From: Ottowia sp. SB7-C50
GTDB taxonomy: Bacteria; Pseudomonadota; Gammaproteobacteria; Burkholderiales; Burkholderiaceae_C
Assembly (NCBI RefSeq): GCF_033110285.1
Contig: NZ_CP136995.1
Span: 1,240,001 to 1,304,000 of the forward strand
Direction: 5' to 3'
DNA length: 64,000 nt
Below the pieces are notes generated by a model. It was given only the letters and a program-made list of their open reading frames with translations. It was not told the origin of the DNA and searched no databases. Shown one piece after another: positions 19,375 to 35,741 of this stretch (positions within the stretch are counted from its first letter, which is position 1; each line of letters starts with the position of its first letter). The position numbers and the translations under genes were made by a program.

Positions 19375-19750
19375 GGGGCTGCATTGGTTTCGACGTGGGT
19401 TGGAATCGCCTCAGGGCATGTCGAGGTTCAGTCACCTCGTTAATCCGCTGAAAAAAACTAACTGCAAACGACGAACGTTTCGCACTCGCCGCCTAAACAC
19501 CGGTGAGCCTCGCAACAGCAGGCCGATGGGCTGGGCAAGGGGGTCGCAAGACTTCCAGGCTGCGAGGGAATCCACATCGGCTGGTTCACGTCCGGGTGCC
19601 TTGGGCGTGAACGAGATTCAAGGGCACTGGCTGCTCCGGTAGCGTGCGACTGCGCGACCGAAGTGGCGAGATTCAAATCAGACCGCTAAACATGTAGAAC
19701 TGGGCGTGGAAGATTTGCGGACGCGGGTTCAAATCCCGCCAGCTCCACCA
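19375..19750 (+). ncRNA. ssrA: Transfer-messenger RNA (tmRNA)
   Basis: The 5' end GGGGCTGCATTGGTTTCGAC and 3' end GCGGGTTCAAATCCCGCC + AGCTCCACCA form the tRNA-like domain, with the acceptor stem GGGGCT/AGCTCC. The internal open reading frame begins with a GCA resume codon and encodes the proteolysis tag ANDERFALAA followed by TAA (about 19461-19493). tmRNA with SmpB rescues stalled ribosomes. Its 3' end is a classical integration site; everything from here to about 36 kb looks foreign. Confidence 0.97.
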
Positions 19751-20051: not shown

Positions 20052-20077
20052 GTCGGTAGTTATTGACGCCTACCGAC
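20052..20077 (+). promoter_or_regulatory. Palindromic operator candidate for the AbiEi-like regulator
   Basis: Perfect 8-bp inverted repeat GTCGGTAG (20052-20059) / CTACCGAC (20070-20077) with a 10-nt spacer, 21 nt upstream of the AbiEi-like start codon; a TTGACG -35-like box (20063-20068) lies inside it. AbiEi proteins are known to repress their own operon by binding inverted repeats in the promoter, so this placement fits autorepression. Confidence 0.55.
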
Positions 20078-20098
20078 AAAATGCAACATCATTGCAGC

Positions 20099-20698
20099 AT
20101 GGAAAGCTCGCACCAGACTATTCTGGATCTCGCCGCCCAACGTGGCCTTATCCGCCCATGCGACCTCAATGAGCGTGGGCTGCCGACTGTCGCCCTGACG
20201 CGGCTAGTGCGCCAAGGGTTACTGCAGCGGGTTGGACGTGGTCTGTACGCGATTCCGGATCGGCCCGTCTCGGAACACGCTGCGCTAGCCGAGTTAGCCA
20301 GCAAGCACCCGCAAGCCATCATTTGCCTGCTGTCAGCGCTTCGGCTACATGAACTCACCACACAGTCGCCGTTCGAGGTCTGGCTGGCCATTCCAAACAA
20401 GGCCCGCTCGCCAAAGATGGACTACCCACCGCTACGCATCGTCCGTTTCTCTGGTGCCGCACTAACAGAGGGGATCGAGGAACGTGTCATCGATGGCGTA
20501 CTGGTGCGCGTGACCAACGTCGCTCGCACGGTGGCCGATTGCTTCAAGTTCCGTAAGAAGATCGGCCTTGATGTCGCCCTCGAGGCGCTACAGGAAGGCT
20601 GGCGCGCCAAGCGCTTGAGCATGGACGAACTCTGGCGCTATGCCACCCTGTGCCGCGTGGCCAATGTGATGCGCCCATACATGGAAAGCCTGTCATGA
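20099..20698 (+). CDS. AbiEi-like antitoxin / transcriptional regulator
   Basis: A 199-residue protein from the ATG at 20099 (MESSHQTILDLAAQ). Residues 1-50 form the AbiEi N-terminal winged-helix domain (GLIRPCDLNERGLPTVALTR then LVRQGLLQRVGRGLYAI), and the rest the AbiEi C-terminal domain (HPQAIICLLSALRLHELTTQ, RIVRFSG, VRVTNVARTVADCFKFR, GLDVALEALQEGW). AbiEi is the antitoxin of type IV AbiE systems and represses abiE transcription. The nucleotidyltransferase toxin AbiEii that should follow is missing; only a short stretch separates this gene from the helicase gene. The upstream in-frame TTG and ATG have no better ribosome site. Confidence 0.8.
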   Translation: MESSHQTILDLAAQRGLIRPCDLNERGLPTVALTRLVRQGLLQRVGRGLYAIPDRPVSEHAALAELASKHPQAIICLLSALRLHELTTQSPFEVWLAIPNKARSPKMDYPPLRIVRFSGAALTEGIEERVIDGVLVRVTNVARTVADCFKFRKKIGLDVALEALQEGWRAKRLSMDELWRYATLCRVANVMRPYMESLS

Positions 20699-20765: not shown

Positions 20766-23453
20766 ATGACCATCCTCGTTTACGGCGAGAAGGCCAGCCG
20801 CACTCATGAAAACCAGATGCTCCACGTTTTTCTGGACCGACTCGAGGAGCGTTGGGCAAACAGCACCGATTGGATTATTACGATTGCAAACGCGATGTGG
20901 AACGGCGCGGAAATCGACTTGGTCTGCATCCTACCGTCAGCAATCATCGTGGCCGACTTCAAGAGCTATGGCGGCAAGCTGACTGGCACCGAGAACGGGC
21001 CCTGGCAAGCTGATGGTGTGATAGTCAAAGGTGGACGGAAGGCCAACCCCTACCAGCAACTACGCGACAACAAGTTCTCCGTTCTGGACTGGCTGCAATC
21101 AAAGGCACTGCTGTCCGGACGCAATCTCGGCCACATCTCTGCTGGCGTAATATTTTCAGGCCGGATCGAAGATCAGTTGGAACTTCCATCTAAGGTTCGC
21201 TCCTGGTTCTACCCGACGGATTTGACCAGCTGCGCTGCCATGCTCGATGGCCTCTCCTCGCCCGAACTAAGGATTGGCAAAGACGAAGCATTGGAAATTG
21301 TCCGCAGGCTCGGGGTTCAGCCGATTGAATGGGCTTCCAGTCGCCCACAGGTGCGCGATATTCATTCGCATCCCGATCTGCCGCAGGCCCGCACACCGCT
21401 GACTGGACATCAGCGAGAGGCTCTACAGACGCTGTGCAACTTTGTCGCTGCGGACGATTTCGTAAGTTTTTCAGTGCTGGGAATGACCTCGACTGGCAAA
21501 AGCCGCCTGCTGGCCGAGGTGGCCGACGAGGTCAAGAAGGCAGGTAAACAGGTCATCGTCCTGGAGCCCAACCGGCGCCTTGCCGATGGAGCTGAGGTGG
21601 AGTCAAACAGCATCTACGCTCATCTCTATACGGGCAGCGTCAACGGCGATGATGAGCTTGAAAATGTGGCAGAGCAGAAAAAAGTCAAGGTCATTCCGTT
21701 GCGCGGATGCGATGACGCAACGGACAGTGTCTACCTGCTGGACGACTCGCATTTGCTGGGGAATTCGCGCTTCTCGACTCCCGACGGCAAGCAATATGGC
21801 AGCGGCCAGTTGCTATCGGATTTCTTCGATTTCGCCGAGATCGGAAACACGAAGCGCAAGGTTGTATTTTTTGGCGATCCCTACCAGATCCAGCGTGGCA
21901 GCTCCGAGGAATCGGTGCTTTCTGGTGAATTCCAGAAAGCACGGGGACTGAAGCACCAGTCACTCGAGCTGACTCAACTCATCGATACTACTGGCGGCTC
22001 GGCCAAACTGGCCAATGCGGTCAAGTTGGTGTCTGCCATCGGAACGCAGAAGTTCGCTGCGCTGGAACTGTCGACTGACGACGGTTTCAGGATTGTCGAA
22101 AAGAAGGACGCAGCGAGCGAGATATTGGATCACTTTCGTGCGGACCCAGGCTCCGTCTGGTATTTGGCCGAGACGCATGGCCAAGCAAATGCATTGACGC
22201 AATGGGTTCGGGAGCGCTTGCACGGAAAGAGCTCTTTGGACGCCGTGGAGGTCGGGGACCTCTTGGAGATATACGTCAGCCCAGATACGCGCGACGCTTT
22301 CGGCTCACGCGTGGCGATGCAATCCGGTGGGCGCATCTCCGTCGCGAGTGTCGGCGAGCGTACCCTGTACCAGCAAGGCTTAAGCTGGGTAAAAAGCGGC
22401 CCTATCAAGTTTCATTCCATCAGGTGTGGGATTCATAGTCGAGATGAGGTTGAGCTCGAGGTGTTCGAGGAGTTTCTGAAGGCGGAAAAACCAGAGCTGG
22501 ACAAAGAGACTGCTGTCGCTGAAAGCGTTTGGAGAAATGCCATAAAGCGTGACCGAGAGAAGGCATTCGACGGCAAACAGGCCGCGCTCCAAGGAATAGA
22601 AGGCCGGTCGGCTCCACCGCCCGCACCAGATTTCACCTACGCACGTTATGGCTATGCATCGACCGTTCACCATGCTCAGGGCATGTCGCAGCCAGTTTGT
22701 TACGTGAATTGCGACCATGCGGCCGGCCGGCACTCGGAAGGATTCTTCCGCTGGCTGTACTCGGCGCTCACTGTCGCTGAACGTGAGTTGGTTCTTTTGA
22801 ATTTCAGCGATATCCACCCATTTGACGCTGCTGTATGGAATGCGGGTGCAGTCAAAGAGGCCTCGGACATTGCAGTAGGCGCTGGCTGGACATTCCAGCC
22901 CAACGGAATCGCGTCCGAGAAAGACCAGCAACGCAGCCTGCCTGAGGGGCTAGACCAATCAAAAGATGTTCTCAAGTCGATAGCAATTTGGCTCCGTGTC
23001 GTCAACGCAGCAGAGCGGTTGGGCTGGCGGGTCGTAAAGGCGGCCTGCCACCCTTACCAAGAGCAGTACGATCTATCTGGACCGCAAGAAGAACAATGCC
23101 AGCTGCGGATCGCCTACAACGGAAAGAACGTCGTCACCGCCATGCACGTGAAAGATCCGGCGCAGTGGCCTTTACTTACCGACTTGGCCAGCGCATGCGT
23201 CGAAACGACTGGATATTCACCTGAGGCTGAAACCTTGCTTCGCTCTGCTCGCGCGCGTTTGGACCGGATTGGCTGGAAGATCGTATCCGCTGCCGAGACG
23301 CCTTACCGTCTAGCATCTACCGTTGCTCGCAACCAGGATGAACGCGTCGGTCTTGAGATTAACTTCGACAAGCAGGGGCTGGTTTCGAGCTTGCGCCCGC
23401 TGACATACAGCAACTCCGAGGCTGTTGAAACAATAAGGTCGGCTTTGCAATGA
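20766..23453 (+). CDS. NERD-domain nuclease / superfamily 1 helicase
   Basis: An 895-residue protein. Residues ~10-110 match a NERD nuclease-related domain, with the PD-(D/E)xK-like residues E49-I-D51 and D64-F-K66 (VADFKSYGG) and the late NPYQQLRDNK motif. A UvrD/RecD-like helicase core follows: Walker A GMTSTGKS (K245), motif II LLDDSHLLG (~324), motif III VVFFGDPYQIQRG (~366), motif V-like ASTVHHAQGMSQPV (~631) and motif VI-like ALTVAERELVLLN. The last ~150 residues hold two copies of an LxxxGW(R/K)(V/I)V unit (RLGWRVVKAACHPYQ, RIGWKIVSAAETPYR), a repeat of unknown role. Its stop overlaps the next gene (ATGA), so the two form an operon. Nuclease-helicase fusions of this kind are common in anti-phage systems; function here is inferred. 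Confidence 0.8.
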   Translation: MTILVYGEKASRTHENQMLHVFLDRLEERWANSTDWIITIANAMWNGAEIDLVCILPSAIIVADFKSYGGKLTGTENGPWQADGVIVKGGRKANPYQQLRDNKFSVLDWLQSKALLSGRNLGHISAGVIFSGRIEDQLELPSKVRSWFYPTDLTSCAAMLDGLSSPELRIGKDEALEIVRRLGVQPIEWASSRPQVRDIHSHPDLPQARTPLTGHQREALQTLCNFVAADDFVSFSVLGMTSTGKSRLLAEVADEVKKAGKQVIVLEPNRRLADGAEVESNSIYAHLYTGSVNGDDELENVAEQKKVKVIPLRGCDDATDSVYLLDDSHLLGNSRFSTPDGKQYGSGQLLSDFFDFAEIGNTKRKVVFFGDPYQIQRGSSEESVLSGEFQKARGLKHQSLELTQLIDTTGGSAKLANAVKLVSAIGTQKFAALELSTDDGFRIVEKKDAASEILDHFRADPGSVWYLAETHGQANALTQWVRERLHGKSSLDAVEVGDLLEIYVSPDTRDAFGSRVAMQSGGRISVASVGERTLYQQGLSWVKSGPIKFHSIRCGIHSRDEVELEVFEEFLKAEKPELDKETAVAESVWRNAIKRDREKAFDGKQAALQGIEGRSAPPPAPDFTYARYGYASTVHHAQGMSQPVCYVNCDHAAGRHSEGFFRWLYSALTVAERELVLLNFSDIHPFDAAVWNAGAVKEASDIAVGAGWTFQPNGIASEKDQQRSLPEGLDQSKDVLKSIAIWLRVVNAAERLGWRVVKAACHPYQEQYDLSGPQEEQCQLRIAYNGKNVVTAMHVKDPAQWPLLTDLASACVETTGYSPEAETLLRSARARLDRIGWKIVSAAETPYRLASTVARNQDERVGLEINFDKQGLVSSLRPLTYSNSEAVETIRSALQ

Positions 23454-25117
23454 CGTGGGCGGACGTACAAGCGCTCCGGAAATCGGGGCGTTTCCAGGAG
23501 GCTATCGACCTCGGTCTTCAAGATCTAGCCAATGATCCTGACGACTTTAAACTGAGGACGCAGATTGATTGGGCTTTCTATGGCCTCGTCAAGACCCTGG
23601 TTTCCATGGTGGGAGCAAAGCTGAAAGCCTCGCAGCCTGTCCCAATGCAGACCATTAGCCAGATCCATGCAGAACTTCGCCGATTCGCAAGACAGCCGAA
23701 ACGTCGCCCAGACAATGCACTCTCGAACATCATTCGAGAGGTGTGCAAAATTGCACCGCATTTTCAAACTTTTCCAGGGTTCATTCGGTGGGTTGGTAAC
23801 GATGGTTTAGGCACGGAAGATTGGCAATACAGCCAGCGCGATGAGAATCGCTACCCACCGATCGCACTTGGCGTCGCACGTGCATTGGCAAAATGGGTTA
23901 AAGCCTTCCACGATGCCACGCCAGAAGACATCGATCTTGCGCTTGAGTGGATAGACCGAATTCGACCTGTGGCTGAGGGTGATGATGCTCTTTGGCTGGA
24001 TTGGGACAAGGTTTTCTTGCTGCGGCGCATTCATCGACACGCCGAGGCCACCAGCATTCTTGGCTCTGTGATCAAGGCCAAGAGAAATGAATTCTGGGTA
24101 TGGGCAGAGGCAGCGCGCCTATACGCTGAGGATCAACCCGATCTCGCGCTCGCGTGCGCCTGCCGCGCACTGGAATGTGGCTCTGATCCAAAATTCACCG
24201 TCAATGTTCATCGTGAACTGGCGCAGATGTTGGCAGAGCGAGGAGACTTCTCCCAAGCAAGTAGTGAGCTCGTCACTGCCATCAACATTCGGCAGGAACA
24301 AGGCTGGGGAATCGACAAAGAGCTTCAGGAGCTGATCAGCAGCAATTGGTATGACCCGTCAGCGCCCGAAGCCGAGAACCAGAAAGATTTCTACGCTGGG
24401 CACTCCCAGGAAGCGTTGGTGCTGTGCTTCGATTCGGTGGAAGTGAGGTCTGCGACCTATCTGGGCGTCATCGTGCCACACCAGAAAAAGGAAGCACCAC
24501 CTGGTCGAAAGATAAGGCCCCTTCCGAGGTTCTCTGTGCGAGCGAACGGCGGCGCCTCGGTCAGTATCGTTGGACGGGGTGCGCGTGTCTCTTCCTTCAA
24601 GATTGGCGACCCTGTAACTCTCGTTGTTGGCAAGCAGTTGGAAAGCAATCGCGAGGATATCGTCCAAATTGCAGCGCGTCCGGAAGGCTCAAAGTGGGAC
24701 TGCACAGATGCCGGATCTGGCGTCGTCTCGCGCGTGGGATCAGAGGAAAAGCGTACAAAGATTTTCATCAATCGCGACATCGAAGTTGGAGTCGACGACA
24801 GTGCCTGGGTCGGCTCTCAACCACCATCGTTAGGCCAGGGCGTTTCTTTTCGGACCACGCAAAACCAAAAGACGGGTCGGACGGATATCTTTGCCGTTGC
24901 GCCCGGCCCGCGTCCAGATGTCGATGTACGGGTGGCGAATGGTCATCTGAAGCGGAACGCCAAAGGATTTGCGTTTGTCGACGATGGTTTTGTTCCTCCG
25001 CATCTAGTTGAAAGCATCCCAGCTGATGTTAATGACGTAGCCGCAGTACTGGTTTATGCCAAGCATCCTAAGGAAGAGCGATATGGATGGCGCGCCGTGG
25101 CACTTAGCGCTGAATGA
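23450..25117 (+). CDS. TPR and OB-fold-like protein, partner of the NERD-helicase
   Basis: A 555-residue protein translationally coupled to the NERD-helicase (4-bp ATGA overlap). Residues ~1-290 are helical TPR-like repeats (RKSGRFQEAIDLGLQDLAND, LLRRIHRHAEATSILGSVIK, DQPDLALACACRALECG, AERGDFSQASSELVTAI). From ~330 the protein is beta-rich with OB/cold-shock-like segments (ATYLGVIVPHQKKEA, GVVSRVGSEEKRTKIFINRD, GHLKRNAKGFAFVDDGFVPP). The last segment strongly resembles a cold-shock-type G(x)GFAF(V) strand. It probably binds RNA or single-stranded DNA and acts as the sensor or scaffold for the helicase. I do not know a characterised homologue. Confidence 0.65.
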   Translation: MTWADVQALRKSGRFQEAIDLGLQDLANDPDDFKLRTQIDWAFYGLVKTLVSMVGAKLKASQPVPMQTISQIHAELRRFARQPKRRPDNALSNIIREVCKIAPHFQTFPGFIRWVGNDGLGTEDWQYSQRDENRYPPIALGVARALAKWVKAFHDATPEDIDLALEWIDRIRPVAEGDDALWLDWDKVFLLRRIHRHAEATSILGSVIKAKRNEFWVWAEAARLYAEDQPDLALACACRALECGSDPKFTVNVHRELAQMLAERGDFSQASSELVTAINIRQEQGWGIDKELQELISSNWYDPSAPEAENQKDFYAGHSQEALVLCFDSVEVRSATYLGVIVPHQKKEAPPGRKIRPLPRFSVRANGGASVSIVGRGARVSSFKIGDPVTLVVGKQLESNREDIVQIAARPEGSKWDCTDAGSGVVSRVGSEEKRTKIFINRDIEVGVDDSAWVGSQPPSLGQGVSFRTTQNQKTGRTDIFAVAPGPRPDVDVRVANGHLKRNAKGFAFVDDGFVPPHLVESIPADVNDVAAVLVYAKHPKEERYGWRAVALSAE

Positions 25118-25202: not shown

Positions 25203-25634
25203 TCAAAGCCCAAGCCTGGCCCGCTGCTCATCCCACAGCGCTGGCGGATCAACCGCCAGGTCGAATAGCGTAATGTGGTTCGGAAGCACGTCGTCCAGGA
25301 TGGCCGCCACGATGTCGGGTGCCAGTGTGGTCAGGTTGACCATCCGGCTGACGTAGCTGTTGTCGATTCCTTCCCGCGTGGCGATCTCCTTCAAGGACTT
25401 CGCTTCTCCTGATTCCAGCATCGCCAACCAGCGGTGGCCCCTGGCCAACGCCAGCTGGATGGAGGTCGGCGCCACGTCCCACGGTCTGACCGGCGCAGTC
25501 TCACCGTTCGGGAGAGTGACCAACTTGCGGCCACTGCGGCGCTTGATCTGGATCGGTACGGACAGGGTCAGCCTGCCGTCGCTGGTCTGCAGGATGCCCG
25601 GTTCGCCGGTTTTCTGGATGCGGATGTCGCTCAC
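25203..25634 (-). CDS. Recombinase-associated small HTH protein
   Basis: A 143-residue protein with a GTG start overlapping the stop of the upstream recombinase remnant (GTGA). The centre contains a ParB/phage-like helix-turn-helix (SLKEIATREGIDNSYVSRMV), preceded by a basic strand region (IQIKRRSGRKLVTLPNG). Small proteins with this layout are commonly encoded directly downstream of large serine recombinases in mobile elements and may act as accessory DNA-binding factors; this is inference from context. The gene appears intact although its partner is truncated. Confidence 0.6.
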   Translation of the reverse strand: MSDIRIQKTGEPGILQTSDGRLTLSVPIQIKRRSGRKLVTLPNGETAPVRPWDVAPTSIQLALARGHRWLAMLESGEAKSLKEIATREGIDNSYVSRMVNLTTLAPDIVAAILDDVLPNHITLFDLAVDPPALWDEQRARLGL

Positions 25635-25810
25635 GCCAGGGCCTCCTCAGTTTGCTCGACCGGCTCGGGACGCAGTTCCAGCACCAGGCGTTCGATGCCG
25701 TTGGCGCGCAGTCGCACTTCGAGGTCGTTGGGTGACACGATGACTTTCTCCACCAGCAACTTCACGATCCGGGTCTGCTCCGCCGGAAACAGTTGATCCC
25801 AAATCTCTGA
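25631..25810 (-). pseudogene. C-terminal fragment of a large serine recombinase
   Basis: Only ~59 C-terminal residues are recognisable (IWDQLFPAEQTRIVKLLVEK, then VIVSPNDLEVRLRANGIERL), which match the conserved end of resolvase/Recombinase-family integrases. Sequence upstream of about 25811 on the minus strand does not continue the protein, so the catalytic serine domain is lost. A start codon exists further upstream (25889) but the added residues look unrelated. The island has therefore lost this integrase, and no other is visible. Confidence 0.65.
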
Positions 25811-25976
25811 CCGACCATCCGACCTTGCGGCAAAGATGGTCGAGGAAATGCGGGGAATCACCTCTCCTAGGGTCAGGGATGAGGAGCTCAAATCCCTGAG
25901 GATGCCGTTCTAAACGTTATTTCCAATGCCGCTGCGTTGGTAGTAAGCCCATTATGGTTTGTGGCGCGCGAGAAGC

Positions 25977-26889
25977 TCAATCAATAACCAAGGCATAGGC
26001 ACTTTGCGCTCTACGTGCTGTCCTTACTGGAACCCCTGCGTAGTTTTCCGCGAGTACGGCCAAAAGTTCGGCTTTGTAGGCATCTGGCATTCGTTCTCCG
26101 ACAATAACTGCTCTCACGGCTTCACGAGGGTAGCTTCGAACCAGAGGCGTATTGTCAGACTTGTTGGTCTGTACCAGAAGGCGCCGTTCTCTCTCGTAAC
26201 TCCATTCGGCAGGCTTGGTTGCAAAGACCTGCTGCCAGATATCACGCATAGTCTTAAGTGCCTCAGCCCCTGACTCTTCATACATTTGAATTTCAGCGCA
26301 CGGCTCTGGCTTGCCTTGGTATTTTATCCTTGCATTCGTTTCTTGAATCGCGGTCTGACTGTACCAATCTTGATCCCATGCGATGCCGTAAATGAAGCTG
26401 TCAACTTTTGGGGGGGGAATTCAAATATGCGACATCTAGAAAGTCGCCTTTTGGCTCACTGTTCGTTAGCGAATTTTCATCGAATTCGACGCAAAAACCG
26501 CGTAGCCCATCACCATAGTGTGACCACAACAAAAGGCTGTCCTGTTCAGAGCTAAAGCATGCAATACGCATTCCTTCCCGCATCACGTCAAAGGGTGGCA
26601 CGTAATCCTGACATTCATTAAAATATTCAAAAAAGTGCTCCTTAATCAAGAAGTCTACTCTGGCCTCTTCGATTATTGAAACATCGAACCCCCAAGCTCT
26701 GATTGCAGCAATGAATCTGTCCGGTTCTCGTTCTGAATCTGGCATTCCTTCAATGATTCTGGCCCAGTATTCAAACGGATCGTTATAGGCAGCATAGTGC
26801 TGGCAAAAGAGCGTGCCTTCCTTAAGATTTTGAAGGGCATAGCTTGTTGGGCCGCTGTATTTGAACAAGCACTTGGCTGAATTCAGCAT
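25977..26889 (-). CDS. DUF2971 family protein, +1 frameshift in a C8 run
   Basis: Read as two pieces: an N-terminal 162 residues (LFKYSGPTSYALQNLKEGTL, CFSSEQDSLLLWSHYGDGLR, GFCVEFDENSL) and, after a stop, a C-terminal ~102 residues (TMRDIWQQVFATKPAEWSYE, REAVRAVIVGERMP). The break is a run of 8 C (plus-strand G 26410-26417). With 7 C the frame continues LNSPPKVDSFIYGIAWDQDW through to the second piece, giving ~303 residues. DUF2971 proteins begin with a KY motif and contain an S(x)WSHYGD-like signature; their biochemical function is unknown, but they are often found in defence islands. It lies 6 nt after the HNH gene as the last member of the restriction operon. Confidence 0.8.
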
Positions 26890-26895
26890 TTACCT

Positions 26896-27780
26896 TCACT
26901 GTCCAGATTGCATGCGAATATTTCCGGAAGTAGCGCAATCGTAGCGCAACATGCTCTGTAGTTCCTTTATCGAGTACGGCGGCGATCGTCTGTGTGCTAC
27001 CGAATGACAATCAGGGCAAAGAGGTACAAGATCAGATTTAGGGTTAATGATGTACCCGGGACCGACCTCAGATACAGGAACGATATGGTGAACCTCGATC
27101 AAGCCCTCGGCGACAGGTCCGTACCGTTCGGCCATATCGGTACCACAGGCCATACACCTGTGACCGTGAATCGCCAACGCTGCCGCGCGGTTGCGCCGGT
27201 CGCGCTCATAGCGATTGACTTCAATTCGCATCTTGGCACCCTCTGGCAGGCCATGCGCATCAAGGACTTCCTCGACTTCTACTTCGACCGGCAAGAGGGC
27301 GATAACAGCAGCTGCGACGCGGGTGGTCCATTCTTCTATCAGACGCATATCTGCGGCGTCGTTGCCCTCATTGATCGCGAGCATCCCCTTGCCGACAGCG
27401 AATCCAAAGCTTCGCCAAGATTCGTTCCATACAGCATCGTCCTTATGGCTTCTTGTCGCACCATTTAAGTTCAAGACAACATCAGCTCCCGCATTGCTAC
27501 ATGCGTCTAGTACGGCTCGGAACACGCGGCGCCCAGATTCGTCTGCAGACCGAACTGACGACATAAGCTCACTGGCGAAACTGCCGAGCCTGAAGCGAAC
27601 ATCAATCCGTCGCCACCCGATCTCGGCGCGGATAGCGAAGGTTTGCCCAGCTGGATGTCCTGCTGGAATTAGCTCTAGCCAGCGAACTCCTTCGCTGGTA
27701 CGTCCCTCAGATCCTGTAAATCCGAGTCCCGTTTCTATTGAGACCGCTTCCGCGAGTGCCCGCGGGTCGAGTTTTGTCAT
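26896..27780 (-). CDS. HNH endonuclease of the restriction operon
   Basis: A 294-residue protein whose start overlaps the stop of the GHKL ATPase gene (ATGA). The C-terminal ~70 residues are an HNH nuclease with a structural zinc site C209/C212 and C255/C258, catalytic H231-H232 (IEVHHIVPVSE), N (IINPKSDLV) and H263 (CHSVAHRR). The N-terminal ~200 residues form a separate domain of alternating strands and helices (WRRIDVRFRLGSFASELM) which I do not recognise; it could be a modified-base or effector-binding module. Tight coupling to the ATPase suggests a nuclease arm activated by it. Confidence 0.85.
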   Translation of the reverse strand: MTKLDPRALAEAVSIETGLGFTGSEGRTSEGVRWLELIPAGHPAGQTFAIRAEIGWRRIDVRFRLGSFASELMSSVRSADESGRRVFRAVLDACSNAGADVVLNLNGATRSHKDDAVWNESWRSFGFAVGKGMLAINEGNDAADMRLIEEWTTRVAAAVIALLPVEVEVEEVLDAHGLPEGAKMRIEVNRYERDRRNRAAALAIHGHRCMACGTDMAERYGPVAEGLIEVHHIVPVSEVGPGYIINPKSDLVPLCPDCHSVAHRRSPPYSIKELQSMLRYDCATSGNIRMQSGQ

Positions 27781-29384
27781 TCGTCTTCACCACCGTTAGG
27801 GTCGGGTAAAGTCTCTACCAATTTCTCAAGAATGCGGGATATCTCGTAACGCATATCCTGGAACATCGCGGCTGTTCCATCCTGTACCGTCGACAGTTCC
27901 GCCACCGAAAGTGCCCACATCAAAGAATCCAGACCCTGCATCGTCACACTGCGATTGAGGTTTGGGACATAGACTTTATGGTAATAGGGGTGACTGGTGT
28001 TGACCTGTACGGCTTTGTGCTGCTCAATGATCGCGGGCTGAAATAGCAGGCCATTGTTAATGCCCTCTACCGGCTGCACGAACACCTCACCTGGGCGCTT
28101 TGCAGCAGCGATCGTTAGTTTGAGGCGTGTTTTGCCGTACTTGTTGTCGATCTCAGCAGTGCCTGCTACTGGGTCTACGACACCAACCTTTGGACCACCC
28201 GCTGCTGCCTCCCGATTGCGGATATTATTGTTAGAGGTGTCATGTGCACCGCTTCCCTTCTTAGAGATTGACTTCTGCTGTCCTTCCCTTGAGCGTCTGT
28301 TTGCTTCACGTCTTGGCGCAGGTAGAAAAGACTCTTGCAACCATGAAGCCAAATCCTCGTTCAAAATAATCTGAGATTTCTTGATGTCAAGATGGAATGC
28401 GTCATCCAGACGGTGATCAAATGAAAACTCGACACGTAGTTGGGTAATATGCGGCTCTTTCTGATAAAGACCTAGCCAATCGGCGTCGTGAATAAGCCTG
28501 TTCTCGCGATATATGTAAATACCCTGCCGTTCGTTAGTGAGCATCGCTTTCTTGGCGAGCTCGTCATCGGGAAATTCCTCCCTGCGAGGCAAGATGAATG
28601 CACGTACAACGAAAGATGCCTCCTTGCCGCTGTCCATTTCAACTTGCAGTGTCTCTTCGGCCACGAGCTCGGATAGCCCCCTCTGAAAGGGGTCCCATGC
28701 AATGACAGGCACGCCGTTAAGCTCTATGCTCACGTCTTGGGCTCGTTTGTCGTTTGGATCCAGAAACCGCTGATAAATCATTGCAAGGTGCTGGCGAAGG
28801 GCGTCCTCTTTTGCTTTGAGTGCCTTCTGAGCTGTTTTTCCGGATGGCGTCGAATAATCTTTGATCAAACGATCAACTTCTTCCCAAAGCACTACAGTTC
28901 CGGAATGGCCGGGAGCAACTTCATCTAGCGATTCAAGTGATTCCTCGTCGCATTTATCACTGACAAGAAGCGACCATTTGTTTACTTTGGCTACGTGGTA
29001 CAAATCCCAGGTTGCCATGAGTGCTGGTGTTTTCCCATCTGGACGGGATATCACAGACAAGCGCTTGCAGAACGCAGTAGAGGCAGTTTTAAGGCCGAGA
29101 CCGTATTTACCGAGACTTGCAGGATTCGGCCGTGCCTTTGAACCATAACGCATGGCATTTATCAGCCCTTGACGGTCCATGCCATCGCCGTTATCTGCAA
29201 TCATCAGTCGGATATTCCCCCTGAAATCAGCAGAAAGTTCGAGCACAACCTTTGTCGCATTTGCAGCAATCGAGTTGTCCACGATATCGGCTACAGCAGT
29301 ATTGAACTCATACCCAGTGTCCCGAAGACCAACGATGACACGCTCTGGATCGGGCTGCAGTTCTATTTCTTCGAAGTCGTTCAT
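27777..29384 (-). CDS. MORC/MutL-like GHKL ATPase
   Basis: A 535-residue protein. The N-terminal half is a GHKL (gyrase-Hsp90-histidine kinase-MutL) ATPase: N-box TAVADIVDNSIAANA (N37), G1 box ADNGDGM (D64-G68), G2 lid LGKYGLGLKTAS (92-102), and GTVVLW. An S5-fold transducer-like region (WDLYHVAKVNKWSLLVSD, IYIYRENRLIHD, RVEFSFDHRLDDAFHLDIKK) follows, as in MORC and MutL. A charged linker (~355-385) precedes a C-terminal ~150-residue domain. The general-base position of the N-box is Asp33 rather than the usual Glu. Such ATPases occur in predicted bacterial restriction systems (Iyer, Abhiman and Aravind). ATP-dependent dimerisation on DNA is inferred. Confidence 0.85.
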   Translation of the reverse strand: MNDFEEIELQPDPERVIVGLRDTGYEFNTAVADIVDNSIAANATKVVLELSADFRGNIRLMIADNGDGMDRQGLINAMRYGSKARPNPASLGKYGLGLKTASTAFCKRLSVISRPDGKTPALMATWDLYHVAKVNKWSLLVSDKCDEESLESLDEVAPGHSGTVVLWEEVDRLIKDYSTPSGKTAQKALKAKEDALRQHLAMIYQRFLDPNDKRAQDVSIELNGVPVIAWDPFQRGLSELVAEETLQVEMDSGKEASFVVRAFILPRREEFPDDELAKKAMLTNERQGIYIYRENRLIHDADWLGLYQKEPHITQLRVEFSFDHRLDDAFHLDIKKSQIILNEDLASWLQESFLPAPRREANRRSREGQQKSISKKGSGAHDTSNNNIRNREAAAGGPKVGVVDPVAGTAEIDNKYGKTRLKLTIAAAKRPGEVFVQPVEGINNGLLFQPAIIEQHKAVQVNTSHPYYHKVYVPNLNRSVTMQGLDSLMWALSVAELSTVQDGTAAMFQDMRYEISRILEKLVETLPDPNGGEDE

Positions 29385-29402
29385 ATTCCTATTCCTGTTG
29401 TA

Positions 29403-29813
29403 TTAAATCGGAACAATGCGCCAACCAGTGCCTAGCTTGAGCACGCTCCCAGAACGTTCCACCTTCCGCTCTCTACGGTGCGACACCAAATATCGATCGC
29501 CATCGCGAGAGAGAGTTAACTCGTCTCCAGCGATGAGTCCTGCCTGGCGAATATATTTTGTCATTCGCGTTAGTCGGTACTCGTTACGCGTCCCGTCAAA
29601 TAAGGCGTTGTTGTAATAGATGAAAGCGAACTCCCAGAAGGTGCCTCCATCATCTAGGAAACGTAGATGGACTCGAGGGTTGTACTGTTTTGGATCCAGC
29701 TCCGGAAAAAATGAGAGCAGATGGGGCTCTTTCGGGACGAGAATGCCTGCCTGATGCCCCCCTGTCTCACCAGTGTCATTCGCGCTCAGAACCTTGGCTA
29801 TCCGACGCTCCAT
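29403..29813 (-). CDS. Free-standing EcoRII-N-like DNA-binding domain protein
   Basis: A 136-residue protein matching the effector/DNA-binding pseudobarrel domain of EcoRII-type endonucleases: KVLSANDTGETGGHQAGILV, LHLRFLDDG-type strand (VHLRFLDDGGTFWEFAFIYY), NEYRLTRMTKYIR, and GDELTLSRDGDRYLV. No nuclease motif is present. It is encoded between the SNF2 gene (stop 3 nt upstream) and the GHKL gene (18 nt gap). It is likely to be a target-recognition subunit for the ATPase complex, separate from the full-length EcoRII-type enzyme of the same operon. A solitary domain like this is known from predicted restriction operons but I know of no biochemical study. Confidence 0.8.
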   Translation of the reverse strand: MERRIAKVLSANDTGETGGHQAGILVPKEPHLLSFFPELDPKQYNPRVHLRFLDDGGTFWEFAFIYYNNALFDGTRNEYRLTRMTKYIRQAGLIAGDELTLSRDGDRYLVSHRRERKVERSGSVLKLGTGWRIVPI

Positions 29814-29816
29814 ATC

Positions 29817-31722
29817 CTATTTCCTCTCTTGCTTGGACGGCGAACGGCTGAGCGCCGCCACGATGTCGCCGTAGTCCTCATCCTTCCCTTCGATGCCAAC
29901 AATTGCGGCATTTGAGAGAGTCCTTTTCCTCGTCAAACGGTCATTCACGACATCCTCGACGGTGTCCGCAATGAGCAAACGATGTACCGTGACCGGGAGC
30001 TCTTGGCCGCGCCTATGAGCGCGTGCTGAAGCTTGGTCTTCTAAAGCGGGATTCCACTCCGGGTTGTAATGGATCACGTGATTGGCGGCGACAATGTTGA
30101 GACCAGCCCCCCCCTGCCTTAGGGTTGAGAACTAGCGCCGCACCGCCTTTTATGGAACCGAACCGGTCGATCATCGGCTGTCGCTCTTCGATTGGAAGGC
30201 GTCCATCTATGACTCCTGCGAATGCACCGAAGCGTTTCATGACATGCCGCGCGATGATGTCCGCCATCGCAGTAAAAGATGTGAAGACCAGCACCTTTTC
30301 GTCCCGCTCGAAGATTTCCTCTACGATCTCATCGAGCCGCCGAAATTTTGTAAACGTCATGGGATCAGCTGTATCAACATCTCCACCCATAAGACTGGGG
30401 TGCGCACAAAACCGCCTGAGAGACGTCAGCGCAACAAGTGTGGCGGCCGAACCATATTCGGCGTATATACGTTCACGCTCTGCGTCATATACTGCGGCCT
30501 CGGATTCGGCCAGATCGAGCAATTGGGGTATGTCAATACGAGGTGGCAGGTCTTGAGCAACTTCGGCGACGCGTCTTCGTAGCATCAAAGGAGAAATCAG
30601 GGGCTCAAGCTGAGCGGCACTATCTGCGTTATTGAGAAATTGCTTCTCGAAGGATTTTGCGTCACCCAAGTATCCCGGAAACACGAAGTCCATTATTGAC
30701 CAGACATCAAGCAGTCGATTCTCGATCGGTGTTCCTGTCACCGCGAGACCTGCATCTCGCTGCAAATGCTTTACTGCCTTGCTTCGTTGGGCAGATGGAT
30801 TTCGGATGAACTGTGCTTCATCAAGCACAACCACTTTCCATCGGATCATATTAAGCAGGCTATTGTCCCCAACGACCACTTCATACGAGGTAACGACGAC
30901 GTCGTACTCAGCTAGATCTGCGGGACGACCGGTCCGGACTGGTCCGTGATGTTTCAGGACTTTCAACCCTGGAGCAAATTTTCTGATTTCACGGCGCCAG
31001 TTTTCGAGCAGCGACCCCGGAGCGACGATCAGTGAAGGCCGGAGAGGGCCGCTGCCAGCATCACTCAGTGCCGCAATGATCTGGAGAGTCTTCCCGAGCC
31101 CCATTTCATCGGCAAGCAATCCTCCGCTCCCCTCTGAGAGCAGAAATTTCAGCCATCGCCACCCCAAAATCTGATAGGAGTAAAGGTTTGCATCAACACC
31201 GTTTGGCGTGTCGTGACCTGTCGGGATAAATGCACAAGGCGATATAGATAGGGTCGCCGTAATGTCGTCAACTGGTCCGCCTGCCGCTGCGGCCTTGCGA
31301 ACGTGAAGGAATGACTTCAATGATTGAACAGGGCCAAGCTCTGCACCTGCGTCGAGCAGCAGTTTGGCAATCTCGGTACTCGTTGGCGTGTCAATTGGAT
31401 ACCAGGTGCCGTCTAGAATGACATGTCCTCGCTCCAGATCAGACAAATCAAGCGAGAGAAGCAAGCCACGGCACTTCGCAGTAAGCAAATATTTTGGAAT
31501 TCCATCGCTGCCTTCGTCTATAACCAAGCGCGGAACCAATGGATACCGAGACACTCGCAGATCTGCCACACTCGTGGGAATTCCATCTTCAGTGGGCTTG
31601 CGCTCTACGAGGGCAGCATAAATTTCATCAACAGAAGGAACTCGAATATTTCCTGTCCGCTCAATTAACCGCAGTTCTTTGCCGCTCACATCCCATTTAA
31701 TGCTCATCAAAATTGGCTCCAT
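29817..31722 (-). CDS. SWI2/SNF2-family ATPase, +1 frameshift in a G8 run
   Basis: Corrected length ~634 residues. An N-terminal ~175-residue domain of unknown type precedes the SF2 core: YSYQILGWRWLKFLL, Walker A LLADEMGLGKT (K211), DEAQ box VVLDEAQFIRN (301-304), motif III AVTGTPIENRLLDVWSIMDF, motif IV KVLVFTSFTAMADI, then motifs V-VI VIHYNPEWNPALEDQASARA HRRGQ. The break is a run of 8 C on the plus strand (30107-30114); seven gives KAGGAGLNIVAANHV, the normal motif V. Its start overlaps the stop of the EcoRII gene by one base (TAATG). SNF2 proteins translocate along double-stranded DNA, so it probably drives target search or scanning in the system. Confidence 0.85.
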
Positions 31723-33024
31723 TAGCTGTTCTGGCGCTGTCGAGCCAGACTAATGAATGCCTCCACGTCCATAAGCCATGCCTGCTGGGGCTGCGTATAG
31801 GTCTGGTGCAGACTTCGCGGCAGAATGAGTTGCAGCCGCTTTGCAGCCATTTCGTCAGTCTGATTCGTGGAAATCGCTGTTTCCAATGTCAGTAGATGCT
31901 TGTCATCAATCCGGTCGGCCTCGGCAAGAACCTGCCGCCAGCGGTCTTTACAGGTCGATTTCACTCCAAGCATTGTGAGCTTTAGAGAATCGAACGATGG
32001 ATTGTGGTACTCAGCCACGCCCGGGAATAGAAAATCAGGCTTGGCCTTGTTTTCTGTTACGGCTGTTCGCGTGTAGCGAAGACCATTCTCTGAAAACAGC
32101 AATTCCAGATGATTTTCCAGCGCAAGGCCAACACGGCTTTTTCGCCGATTCTGCACGGACAGCGAGAACGAAATAAAACTGTCAACATCGATTCCATTTA
32201 CTTTTTTACGTATGCCATCCGGTTCTTTGTCTGAGTGAAAGGGAAAGCCCGCAGGAGAAATCACTGTCTTTGATGGGTCAATAAAGCCAACTGACAATCG
32301 GTCGGCAATAAGATAGCGCTCGAGTGTTCGGAAAAGGATTTCCTCACGCTCCATCCACGTCATCAGAACAAGGTCGGGCTGATCCTTTGGGGAAAGGTCC
32401 TTGAGAGTTGAACGCGCATAAGCCGAAAACTCTCGAGTGGTAGGGAAGCGACTATTGAAGCGGCTGAGCATCTCATCAAGATAGGTATCCTCAGATGCTT
32501 CAACTGCAATGCCGATATTTTCAAGAATAAACCGGGATGCAAACTCGATACGGTCCTGTTCCGTTTCTAGCTCAGACTTTACTGAGAACCCCGGGTGCGC
32601 CAAGTCGGCGAATCCAAACAACCATTCAATCTGCCTCCCAATACTTGAACCATTTTCTGCAATGATGACGAGGAGGCCTCCGTCGCGTTTTTTGGCGATG
32701 ACTAGCAGATCGCCCTCACTCGCGTTCAGGGAAACAGTCGTGGTAGGGAAGTAAAGGCGAAATTCCGGTGCTCGTGGCTTGCCATGTCGCCGATTGCCCA
32801 AAGTGAGGAAAGCATCCTCAACAATTGGTTCTGGATCATCATCGGTGAGGTAGAGAAAACGCGCAGAAATTCTGGTTTTTTCTTCTGGCCTTCCAAGAAA
32901 AGCCAGCATCGGTTTTGTCGCGTTGTATTCATGCTGGTTTGAACGCGTTTCATCTGCCTCAACTGCACTCAGTCGCTTGGCGGCGACCCCCCTCAAAATA
33001 CTCTGACAAGTATCCGGACTTCAT
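31722..33024 (-). CDS. EcoRII-type restriction endonuclease, +1 frameshift near the N-terminus
   Basis: With one G removed from a run of six (plus-strand C 32987-32992) the protein starts at an ATG overlapping the vsr stop (ATGA) and reads MKSGYLSEYFEGVAAKRLSA for 433 residues; as read, only a TTG start inside the frame remains. Residues ~12-130 form the EcoRII-N effector domain (KRLSAVEADETRSNQHEYN, GDLLVIAKKRDG). The C-terminal catalytic domain has D330 (KPDFLFPG), Y339, K355 and K359 (LGVKSTCKDRWRQ), with the same spacing as EcoRII D299/Y308/K324/K328. EcoRII cleaves before CCWGG and needs several sites. Specificity here is inferred from the neighbouring Dcm and Vsr. Confidence 0.88.
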
Positions 33025-33467
33025 TTACGCACCTCGATCAACGGGGTGTCGCTACGAAGCCATTCGGCAAGGCTCTGTGCTACTCCCTCGATATTTTTCC
33101 CAGCGCCGCGCAGGGCGCACTCCCATATGACGCCAACCCGCCAACCGTCTGCCAGCAATGCCGCCTTGGCACGGTTGTCGTTATTCTGATTCCGCTCAAT
33201 CTTCTCGCTCCAGAAGTCCGGGCGGGTTCCTGGCAACTTGAACAGTGGGCAGTTGTGCCCATGCCAGAAGCATCCATGCACAAATACTACCGCACGGTAG
33301 CGAGGTAACACGATGTCTGGCTTGCCTGGCATGTCGCGGACATGAAGACGGAACCGGAAACCCTGACGGTGCAGCAGGCTGCGAATCAGGATTTCCGGTT
33401 TTGTGTTGCGTCCACGTATACCGGACATCATCCGGCTACGTGTAGCGCTGTCCACTACGTCAACCAT
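33021..33467 (-). CDS. vsr: Very short patch repair endonuclease
   Basis: A 148-residue DNA mismatch endonuclease that nicks 5' of T in T:G mismatches created by deamination of 5-methylcytosine in the methylase target. It carries RSRMMSGIRGRNTKPE near the N-terminus and catalytic D51, H64 and H69 (GKPDIVLPRYRAVVFVHGCF then WHGHNC), identical in number to E. coli Vsr, plus WSEKIERNQNND. Start and stop overlap the neighbouring dcm (TGATG) and EcoRII (ATGA) genes. Its presence implies that the methylase makes 5mC, not N4mC or 6mA. Confidence 0.95.
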   Translation of the reverse strand: MVDVVDSATRSRMMSGIRGRNTKPEILIRSLLHRQGFRFRLHVRDMPGKPDIVLPRYRAVVFVHGCFWHGHNCPLFKLPGTRPDFWSEKIERNQNNDNRAKAALLADGWRVGVIWECALRGAGKNIEGVAQSLAEWLRSDTPLIEVRK

Positions 33468-34733
33468 CAGGCAAACAAGCGTAGCGGAAGTGGAGTGCCG
33501 TCTCGTTCGTGTTCAACCAATGCTCGTATGTGAGGAGTCATGATGCGGGCGACTTCCTGCATCACCGGCATAACTACGCTGTTGCCAAACTGGCGGTAAG
33601 CCTGTGTATCACTTACGGGTATCCGAAAAGTGTCAGGAAAGCCCATCAGACGCGCACATTCTCGGGGTGTCAGTCGGCGTGGTCGTTTTTTTCTCACCCT
33701 GCCACACAAGAATTTCAGATCCATCTTTGTGATACCGTGCGGACAGTGTGCGAGTAACACTATTGGGATAGACCATGCCAAATCCAAAACCATTGCCTGC
33801 GGCGCGGTGCTTCTCTGCGTAGGCTTGCAGGTAGGTCCACAGGTTGGGAGTCAGTGTGTATCTTGGCTGGACGACTTTTTTGCCGTGATCAAAAAAGCGC
33901 TCTCCATCCCACGGAATGAACGGCTCTGTGCCATCGGTTTTGTGTAGGATTGACGCAAGGCGCGGCCCTTCTTTTGGCAGCATCAGGTCATCCCATGAAA
34001 AGCCTGTGTTACCACGGAAACCGACAATGATGATTCGCTCGCGGTGCTGAGGAGTGAAGTGCTGTCCATCGATTATTTTGTAATGCACGTCATAGCCGAG
34101 CTCATCTCTGAGTGTTTGCAGAATCACTTCGAAGGTGTGCCCCTTGTCGTGTGACAGCAGGTTTTTGACGTTCTCCAGAAGGAATGCTTTGGGACGCTTA
34201 GTGGCAATAATGCGAGCCACATCAAAGAACAGAGTCCCTTGCGTTGTGCACTCGAAGCCATGCGGGCGACCTAGCGAATTTTTCTTACTCACCCCGGCGA
34301 TGCTAAAAGGCTGACAAGGAAATCCCCCAAGCAAGACGTCATGATCTGGTACGTCTTCGGCTGGATACGGCACTATGTCACCGACGAAGGGGTGGTTATC
34401 GCCGTAATTCTCGAGATAGGTCTTTTTCGAGAAGTCATTCCATTCACTGGTGAACACGCATTCGCCACCATGAGCCTCGAAGCCCATGCGAATGCCACCG
34501 ATGCCTGCAAAAAGGTCAATAAAGCGGAAGCTGTGGCCGCCTTCCGTGGCTGGGGTTCTCGGTTGCTGTAGAAGGTCGCGCAGCGCAGGTTCGAGCATTG
34601 CGGGGCATGGCGTCTCGCCCTTTTCCCAACGCCTAACGGTCTTGGTGTCTTTGCCAACATGATCGGCAATTTCGCGTTGGGTGAATCTGTTACGCGCCTG
34701 CTTAAGCAGCTCCAGCGGTTGGGCGTGGGTCAT
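33467..34733 (-). CDS. dcm: Dcm-type C5-cytosine methyltransferase with N-terminal HTH, +1 frameshift in an A7 run
   Basis: Corrected length ~421 residues. Residues ~10-45 form an XRE-like helix-turn-helix ([20 protein letters not shown]), as in EcoRII methylase/Dcm, which may repress its own promoter. Methylase motifs: [31 protein letters not shown] (nucleophile C140), [10 protein letters not shown] (E187), [38 protein letters not shown]. The frame breaks between IX and X at seven T on the plus strand (33686-33692); six restores [20 protein letters not shown]. First gene of the operon, expected to protect CCWGG sites by methylating the inner C. Specificity is inferred, not read. Confidence 0.9.
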
Positions 34734-34741
34734 CGTGGCTC

Positions 34742-34788
34742 TCTCTGGGTAAAATTGCGGACATTATGACCCATAGTATACCCAGAGA
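34742..34788 (-). promoter_or_regulatory. Inverted repeat operator flanking the restriction-operon promoter
   Basis: A perfect 10-bp inverted repeat TCTCTGGGTA (34742-34751) / TACCCAGAGA (34779-34788), 27 bp apart, brackets the -10 region and overlaps the -35 box and the dcm ribosome site. It is a natural operator for the HTH of the encoded methyltransferase. Confidence 0.6.
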
Positions 34789-34791
34789 CAA
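34763..34791 (-). promoter_or_regulatory. Promoter of the dcm-vsr-EcoRII-SNF2-MORC operon
   Basis: On the minus strand, TTGTCT (34791-34786) and CATAAT (34768-34763) are separated by exactly 17 bp, about 30 nt upstream of the dcm ATG. Confidence 0.6.
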
Positions 34792-35051
34792 GATCTCCCG
34801 CCCCCTTTGGTATCGCGGGTGGGGCACCACTTAAGGATTCTGTCGCCCAAGGTAACGTGTCCTTCATTCACAGCATGAATACAGCGGGCCAGGCGACCCA
34901 GCAGAAGATGGAGGCTTGAGAGTTCCTCTCCGGCGAGCAAATTTCTGCGTGTTGCACGGTCTTTTGCGCCCACTGGTCGACACGCAGGCGGTGTCACCGG
35001 TCCGGCCAATCCACTTCGAAATTTCCGCAATGATGAGCGCTGCCTGTCGAG

Positions 35052-35741
35052 TCAGTCCCAGACGACTTTGCATCCGAGATATTCTCGAAGCACGATCTTT
35101 ACGGTCAGCCCGTTGGCTTGGCTGGTACGAAAGCGATAGTTTCCCTCTTGCACTGCCAGCCATTCAACGAAAGCTTCGCTGTCCATCATCAGCACTCTCT
35201 GCATCGCCCGACTCCCGACCTCGGGCCAGACTTCGAACCTGTCGTCATCACGTTCGAAGGCTTCCCGCTCTTCTTCCGTCATGAGCGGCAGTGGCTTCAC
35301 TTCAAGATGCGATGGCTCGTGGAGTTGTGGTTCGTTGAATTCGAACGCTGCATGGCAGCGAGCCAGCTTGACGATGACGCGATTCACCCGGTCGAGTTCG
35401 ACCGCCCAAACTGGGCCGTGCACGTCATTCATCCACGCCCGTTGCAATCGCTCCAAGAGCGAGGGGTTCCGCTGCAAGATGCGTGAAATCTTGGCCCGTC
35501 GCAACTTATCGGGGGTGGTGTCGCCGGCAATGACGCATTCGAGCAAGCAGGCCAGATACTCTTCGTCGATGGAAAATTCGTTGTTGCATTTGCGGCACGC
35601 CGGGGCCGCCATCAGGTTGTCCGGATATGGCTCGTCCAAGAGAACCCTCGACGGAACATGATCGACGGTCTCGCTTTGTCCACCGCAATGCACGCAGAAC
35701 CCTTTGTTCCGTTCGTCACCGTAGCACCGCATTTGCTGCAT
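35052..35741 (-). CDS. HNH endonuclease family protein
   Basis: A 229-residue protein with an N-terminal zinc-HNH nuclease: FCVHCGG (CxxC), DHVPSRVLLDEPYPDN and ACRKCNNEFSIDEEY (second CxxC plus Asn and acidic residue). The remaining ~150 residues form a mixed alpha/beta domain with no known motif (WAVELDRVNRVIVKLARCHA). Similar proteins are scattered in defence islands and prophages. It has the same direction as the restriction operon but is separated from dcm by >300 bp containing that operon's promoter, so it is an independent unit. Role unknown. Confidence 0.7.
   Translation of the reverse strand: MQQMRCYGDERNKGFCVHCGGQSETVDHVPSRVLLDEPYPDNLMAAPACRKCNNEFSIDEEYLACLLECVIAGDTTPDKLRRAKISRILQRNPSLLERLQRAWMNDVHGPVWAVELDRVNRVIVKLARCHAAFEFNEPQLHEPSHLEVKPLPLMTEEEREAFERDDDRFEVWPEVGSRAMQRVLMMDSEAFVEWLAVQEGNYRFRTSQANGLTVKIVLREYLGCKVVWD

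Follow-up and report, generated by a model that had tools for sequence, protein, structure and literature searches.

A window of 64,000 nucleotides from the genome of Ottowia sp. SB7-C50 (contig NZ_CP136995.1, positions 1,240,001 to 1,304,000) was analysed. On its minus strand, at 25977-34733, lies an operon that belongs to the SNF2-type MORC restriction-modification class and that is frame-broken as sequenced. Prokaryotic operons of this class were predicted, from comparative work only according to the text available, by Iyer, Abhiman and Aravind in 2008 (PMC2292703). In its intact form, the operon probably encodes an ATP-dependent restriction system, in which a protein with an EcoRII-N/B3 domain would read unmethylated CCWGG and an HNH protein would cut the DNA. 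Newly added here is a count of related loci, showing that EcoRII is optional and that Dcm-Vsr-SNF2-B3-GHKL-HNH is the usual unit; we also put forward, as a new suggestion, that the B3 protein is an exchangeable reader of this unit.

Pfam identified eight families along the operon, namely DNA_methylase, Vsr, EcoRII-C, SNF2-rel_dom, EcoRII-N (in a protein of 136 amino acids, aa), HATPase_c_3, HNH and DUF2971. A preliminary description of this DNA had proposed an eight-gene minus-strand operon at 25977-34733; its gene set, order and strand were borne out by the list of open reading frames (ORFs) and by Pfam, but its continuous frames were not, as four genes are split. The restriction operon had also been called fused to the SNF2 and MORC-like ATPases; no fusion was seen, and the genes are separate.

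The operons of Iyer et al., as far as the text available describes them, share a MORC ATPase with the motif GhXhhpXXRhl, an SNF2 helicase, an HNH or EcoRII-like nuclease, a VP1/RAV-type DNA-binding protein, Dcm and Vsr. All of these were found in the window. The GHKL-S5 ATPase gene at 27777-29384 (535 aa, unbroken; PF13589, 7.2e-29) encodes the S5 motif GIYIYRENRLI, which fits the MORC motif, a loose pattern that also fits 17 of 857 other long ORFs; the protein matches human MORC2 (4.7e-08). SNF2 is present, and HNH/EcoRII-like, VP1/RAV-type, Dcm and Vsr proteins are encoded nearby. This copy differs from the published type in the broken frames of Dcm, EcoRII, SNF2 and DUF2971. The prediction had been correctly cited in the preliminary description; "undescribed" was too strong a term, because the operon type is closely described in the available text of PMC2292703. 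No biochemical description was said to be known, and the literature search agrees: no biochemical or phage test of this operon type was found in the literature searched, which lacked most subscription papers and all preprints. In the text seen, Iyer et al. do not treat the B3 protein as a CCWGG reader or EcoRII as dispensable.

Conservation of the gene set

Related loci were collected by a one-genome-per-species scan with an alignment of 28 GHKL proteins. Together with the window itself, L002 (a viral contig) and three loci on plasmids (L084-L086), the best 80 of 273 relatives gave 85 GHKL loci; L001, the window's own locus, was excluded, and L083, an EcoRII plasmid, was used for comparison only. 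With GHKL as the bait and SNF2 as the filter, the 60 loci that also have SNF2 were taken as the core. They span at least 9 named phyla and include near-copies (L013/L014, L034/L035, L012/L026, L004/L005). The MORC motif is present in 59 of the 60; the GHKL proteins of the other 25 loci are distant ones, and in 24 of these loci the motif is present as well. Among 299 genomes of the family, only the window's own gave a GHKL hit; among 398 of the phylum three did, counting that genome, and the two new loci are L131 and L132.

Besides GHKL and SNF2, the 60 core loci contain HNH (59), Dcm (57), Vsr (46), the solitary EcoRII-N protein (45), EcoRII (25, two of them fragments) and DUF2971 (2). In the 45 loci with at least 5.5 kb on each side of GHKL, the numbers were Dcm 45, HNH 45, Vsr 36, EcoRII-N 33, EcoRII 20 and DUF2971 2. 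GHKL and HNH are adjacent on the same strand in 58 of the 59 loci with both, and in 44 of the 45 loci with the solitary EcoRII-N gene no more than 300 bases separate it from SNF2. The usual unit is thus Dcm-Vsr plus SNF2-[EcoRII-N]-GHKL-HNH, with EcoRII and DUF2971 as add-ons. A 10-kb contig (L132) carries just this set, having Dcm, Vsr, SNF2, the solitary EcoRII-N gene, GHKL and HNH without EcoRII. SNF2, EcoRII-N, GHKL, HNH and DUF2971 had been proposed as a unit; the first four do travel together, but DUF2971 belongs with them in only 2 of 60 loci. In L080, too, DUF2971 occurs as an add-on, there beside a distant MORC gene.

The Dcm, Vsr and EcoRII genes might instead form a type II system standing beside an independent SNF2-GHKL-HNH nuclease and sharing one site with it. 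In several relatives (e.g. L006, L007, L008, L010, L012 and L026) these three genes form an opposite-strand cassette next to SNF2-EcoRII-N-GHKL-HNH, and EcoRII is gained or lost at least 11 times over the GHKL tree, as for a separate module. However, Dcm stays where EcoRII does not: given enough flank, Dcm was found in 45/45 loci and EcoRII in 20/45, and EcoRII is absent from 14 of the 33 loci that have both the solitary EcoRII-N gene and enough flank. Since Dcm is retained throughout although EcoRII is dispensable, the methylase goes with the ATPase module, and two systems side by side seem unlikely. The same counts do not support an earlier assignment of Dcm to a normal type II system, the dispensable part being EcoRII, and they indicate that HNH, present in all 45 loci, is the constant nuclease.

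A plasmid search with the solitary EcoRII-N protein returned 2,495 records, of which 8 covered at least 80% of the protein. Among the best 40 of the 2,495, those beyond the first ten or so were mostly annotated type II restriction enzymes. All 8 records, and H10 with 72% coverage, also have a GHKL gene; H11, from Thauera (74% coverage, 38% identity), does not figure in the 30 plasmid records with GHKL. The solitary protein is labelled 'EcoRII N-terminal effector-binding domain-containing protein' in the records. Environmental plasmids include copies of the set annotated as whole genes, for example pMAD49a of Marinobacter shengliensis (L086).

Broken reading frames in the Ottowia copy

Frames were examined by tblastn with the whole proteins of two loci in which each gene is in a single frame: L003, from a Polaromonas metagenome-assembled genome, with 93.7% DNA identity to the window over 25809-34792, and L053, from Hahella, with 81%. 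Dcm, EcoRII and SNF2 gave two-frame matches with both queries. DUF2971 gave a two-frame match with the L003 query; L053 has no DUF2971. Matches of Vsr, the solitary EcoRII-N protein, GHKL and HNH were in a single frame. From the ORF list alone, the methylase, SNF2 and DUF2971 were each placed in two frames. All eight genes had been read as single-frame in the preliminary description, which overlooked the four breaks.

The breaks coincide with mononucleotide runs (given for the plus strand). The methylase gene, identified by Pfam and tblastn, has a first piece of 366 aa at 33633-34733, with a weak N-terminal helix-turn-helix and motifs up to the target-recognition domain; the end of the PF00145 profile is matched in another frame by the ORF at 33467-33793, the change falling at a T7 run (33686-33692). 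In the EcoRII-type nuclease gene (31722-33024) the change is at a C6 run at 32987, and just the first 12 or so codons from the homologous ATG lie in the other frame; the long ORF, 31722-32996, has a TTG start. The SNF2 gene has a first piece of 569 aa at 30013-31722, with Walker A, DEAQ and TGTP motifs (PF00176, 1.6e-58), and a last piece of 86 aa in another frame at 29817-30077; its C8 run (30107-30114) falls in the C-terminal helicase part. The accessory DUF2971 gene, found by Pfam and tblastn, has a first piece of 162 aa at 26401-26889 and a last piece at 25977-26285 in another frame, open from 26420, with a G8 run at 26410-26417. Of the 12 runs of at least 6 in the operon, the three longest are among the four break sites. 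The Vsr gene is unbroken (33021-33467, 148 aa; PF03852, 4.4e-32; TIGR00632 above cut-off).

With four frames broken at mononucleotide runs, the copy is either inactive or in a switched-off state, unless it was wrongly assembled. The related copies look whole, and this one is of lesser weight, since four of its eight genes are frame-broken in the sequence as it stands. The genome yielded no further C5-methylase, PF00145 matching nothing there but the two Dcm pieces. If EcoRII were intact, its presence without a methylase would be paradoxical; the broken start of EcoRII softens this, as would an assembly error in the methylase.

It may well be that the breaks are sequencing or assembly errors at runs and that living cells carry an unbroken operon, a possibility that we regard as evenly poised. 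Each of the four breaks falls at a run of 6 to 8 identical bases, and the pieces flanking each break still match L003 at 86-99%. Over 464 kb of the genome, a split-frame pattern was seen at 12 of 59 runs of at least 7, compared with 291 of 4000 random places, in a search that detects just one of the four operon breaks and with random places as an unmatched control; this excess makes the run lengths of the assembly suspect. An open frame, defined as 900 bases open and reaching at least 300 bases beyond the run on each side, was found at 17 of the 59 runs and at 2427 of the 4000 random places, which would also fit if runs are mostly intergenic. Four of 14 runs of at least 8 and none of the four operon breaks passed this open-frame test. 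These run-based controls lean slightly towards errors at runs, and nothing strong was found to count against this explanation. A syntenic control of 14.3 kb of matched sequence contained zero runs of at least 7, and 3 of its 18 matched proteins were in two frames. Another count, in which 7 of 14 runs of at least 8 outside the operon were spanned by ORFs of at least 1.4 kb, was rejected, as the broken SNF2 gene passes it too.

Mononucleotide runs drive phase-variable restriction systems in other bacteria, and the four runs lie in four genes of one operon, as would be the case if expression of the methylase, EcoRII, SNF2 and DUF2971 were switched by them. This is rather improbable, however. In a comparison that covered Dcm, SNF2 and DUF2971, L003 has kept a run of at least 7 at the corresponding position of DUF2971, the only such case; the absence of such a run from Dcm and SNF2 of both L003 and L053 argues against old tracts there. 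Independent switching of the methylase and the nuclease would also endanger the cell.

The EcoRII-N protein and the proposed mechanism

The solitary EcoRII-N/B3-fold protein, a likely CCWGG reader, is encoded at 29403-29813 (136 aa; PF09217, 1.1e-16). Its PDB matches are EcoRII (7e-10) and, more weakly, plant B3/RAV1 (E 0.005-0.007). By eye, it agrees with EcoRII at 14 of 17 residues in the block KxLSANDTGxTGGHQxG and at 13 of 19 in the block IYYNxAxFxxTRNExRxTR, with about 8 of 41 between them. These two blocks are presumably the DNA-contacting arms of EcoRII-N, which was reportedly studied with DNA by Golovenko in 2009.

The EcoRII-type nuclease of the operon has lost most of these recognition blocks. 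It has a clear EcoRII-C domain (PF09019, 1.2e-66; PDB EcoRII-C, 1.9e-40), and neither the Pfam EcoRII-N model nor the profile of the solitary protein matched it. An hhalign comparison of its N-terminal part with EcoRII-N gave a weak likeness (E 3e-4, probability 39%), which weakly suggests a diverged EcoRII-N domain. The nuclease had been described as full-length; the EcoRII-C part of that claim stands, but the start is broken and no Pfam EcoRII-N was found. The operon shares with type IIE EcoRII a similar methylase recognition segment, an EcoRII-C nuclease and the EcoRII-N recognition blocks, and differs in that its clear EcoRII-N domain is a separate protein, its EcoRII-C protein having only a putative diverged N-domain.

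In 41 loci, the reader is found together with a methylase recognition segment like that of the EcoRII-type methylase in plasmid L083. Where the reader is absent, another type of segment is present in 12 of 14 typed loci. In L009, L022 and L023 the reader is present and no methylase was found on the stretch covered. This pattern is suggestive of a tie between the reader and the recognition segment of the methylase; on the GHKL tree, the reader is gained or lost 4 times. In nine reader-less loci (L028-L032, L034, L035, L038 and L039) a protein of 269-290 aa is encoded just upstream of SNF2; this family has 107 homologues and gave a confident model with no PDB fold match. Five other reader-less loci have, after HNH, a protein that is similar in its C-terminal part to the C-terminal part of GHKL. 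L045, also without a reader, has an HpaII-type nuclease, two full-length GHKL genes and a different methylase beside SNF2-HNH.

In the mechanism proposed, the Dcm-type enzyme would mark the CCWGG sites of the host, and Vsr would repair mismatches caused by 5-methylcytosine. The solitary EcoRII-N/B3 protein would bind unmethylated CCWGG on incoming DNA, serving an ATP-dependent cutter as its recognition subunit; SNF2 would be the motor moving on duplex DNA, and a MORC dimer might clamp or loop the DNA; DNA looping by MORC was proposed by Iyer et al. in the text available (PMC2292703). The HNH protein (26896-27780, 294 aa, unbroken, with the HNH domain identified by Pfam at residues 209-265) would be the cutter; its Cys and His residues are invariant or nearly so across 49 aligned sequences. 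EcoRII, if present, would be a second nuclease that cuts the same site independently of ATP, and DUF2971 would be an occasional extra.

Several points weigh against this mechanism. We infer the CCWGG specificity, the formation of a complex, the order of events and the restriction of phage, as we do everything beyond gene content. The presence of GHKL and SNF2 in the 60 loci is by construction, and in L131 a full-length MORC-type GHKL gene stands by itself in an ordinary chromosomal setting, without the rest of the set. L047 and L052 have the EcoRII-like recognition segment without a reader, and L041 has a reader with a segment of neither type. The segment types were defined by eye, after inspection, and with just 2 to 3 phylogenetically independent pairs the link between reader and segment is not significant. 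As the 269-290-aa substitute has no fold match, nothing indicates that it binds DNA.

A reading in which the solitary EcoRII-N protein recognises methylated or hemimethylated CCWGG, the ATPase-HNH part being modification-dependent or acting in repair with Vsr, is very doubtful: Vsr is found in 46 of 60 loci, MutL-like GHKL proteins act in repair and the HNH protein has a weak PADLOC match to a type IV family (2.3e-06), but with a C5-methylase of the same inferred specificity linked to it, such a system would turn on its own host, and the blocks match EcoRII-N, in the available text of PMC4081073 an effector binder of further CCWGG copies, methylation being outside this comparison.

Returning to the reading of unmethylated CCWGG, the intact relatives could tentatively be viewed as a distinct class of four-protein ATP-dependent restriction enzymes, with a B3 reader that is swapped when the methylase segment changes, an SNF2 motor, a MORC clamp and an HNH cutter. 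If so, they would provide a bacterial system for testing the action of a MORC ATPase on DNA in a defined reaction. Distant bacteria share a stable gene set, the reader matches a domain of known site (EcoRII-N, CCWGG) and there are copies annotated as whole on plasmids, so the part of the MORC ATPase in DNA cutting is directly testable.

Parts of this scheme have parallels in known systems. According to the available text on CglI and NgoAVII (PMC4267653), a C5-methylase, a B3-domain nuclease and a superfamily 2 (SF2) ATPase can form an ATP-dependent restriction system; common to it and the operon type are the C5-methylase, the B3-type recognition domain and the SF2 ATPase, which is needed for cleavage in CglI/NgoAVII. 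The MZA system shares a GHKL ATPase of the same broad family, MzaB; the NCBIfam MzaB match reached 174.8 bits against a cut-off of 850, and no other MZA part was among the matches listed. VcSduA, a Shedu nuclease with a GHKL domain, indicates that such a domain can occur in an active anti-phage protein, although its architecture, in the text available, is other than that of the MORC restriction operon (PMC12137116). In 464 kb of the genome, the frequency of CCWGG was 0.85 of the Markov expectation, compared with 0.97 for CCSGG; no inference was drawn from this.

Setting of the operon

The operon lies downstream of a transfer-messenger RNA gene (19375-19750). Windows of 2 kb over the operon have a guanine-plus-cytosine content of 51-55%, compared with 62-71% in the flanking DNA (as far as 20 kb on one side and beyond 36 kb on the other). 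Upstream of the methylase, a 229-aa gene (35052-35741, minus strand) appears HNH-like by eye, with no match in Pfam or PADLOC; it is common to L003, with 81% DNA identity. Just past the other end of the shared unit, the stretch at 25203-25891 (minus strand) has short ORFs that by eye resemble the end of a recombinase (no Pfam match) and a weak SopB/ParB-HTH-like piece.

Two genes at 20766-25114 (plus strand) match the PADLOC candidate system PDC-M16 over nearly the whole length, with 1875 and 1130 bits. They contain the TOTE conflict-system domains NERD, helicase and TBP-TOTE, together with DUF7017 and S1CSD-TOTE-2. An AbiEi-type antitoxin gene (PADLOC AbiEi, 3.3e-86) is located at 20063-20698 (plus strand), and its DNA kin on Methylomagnum and Methylobacter plasmids adjoin AbiEii genes.

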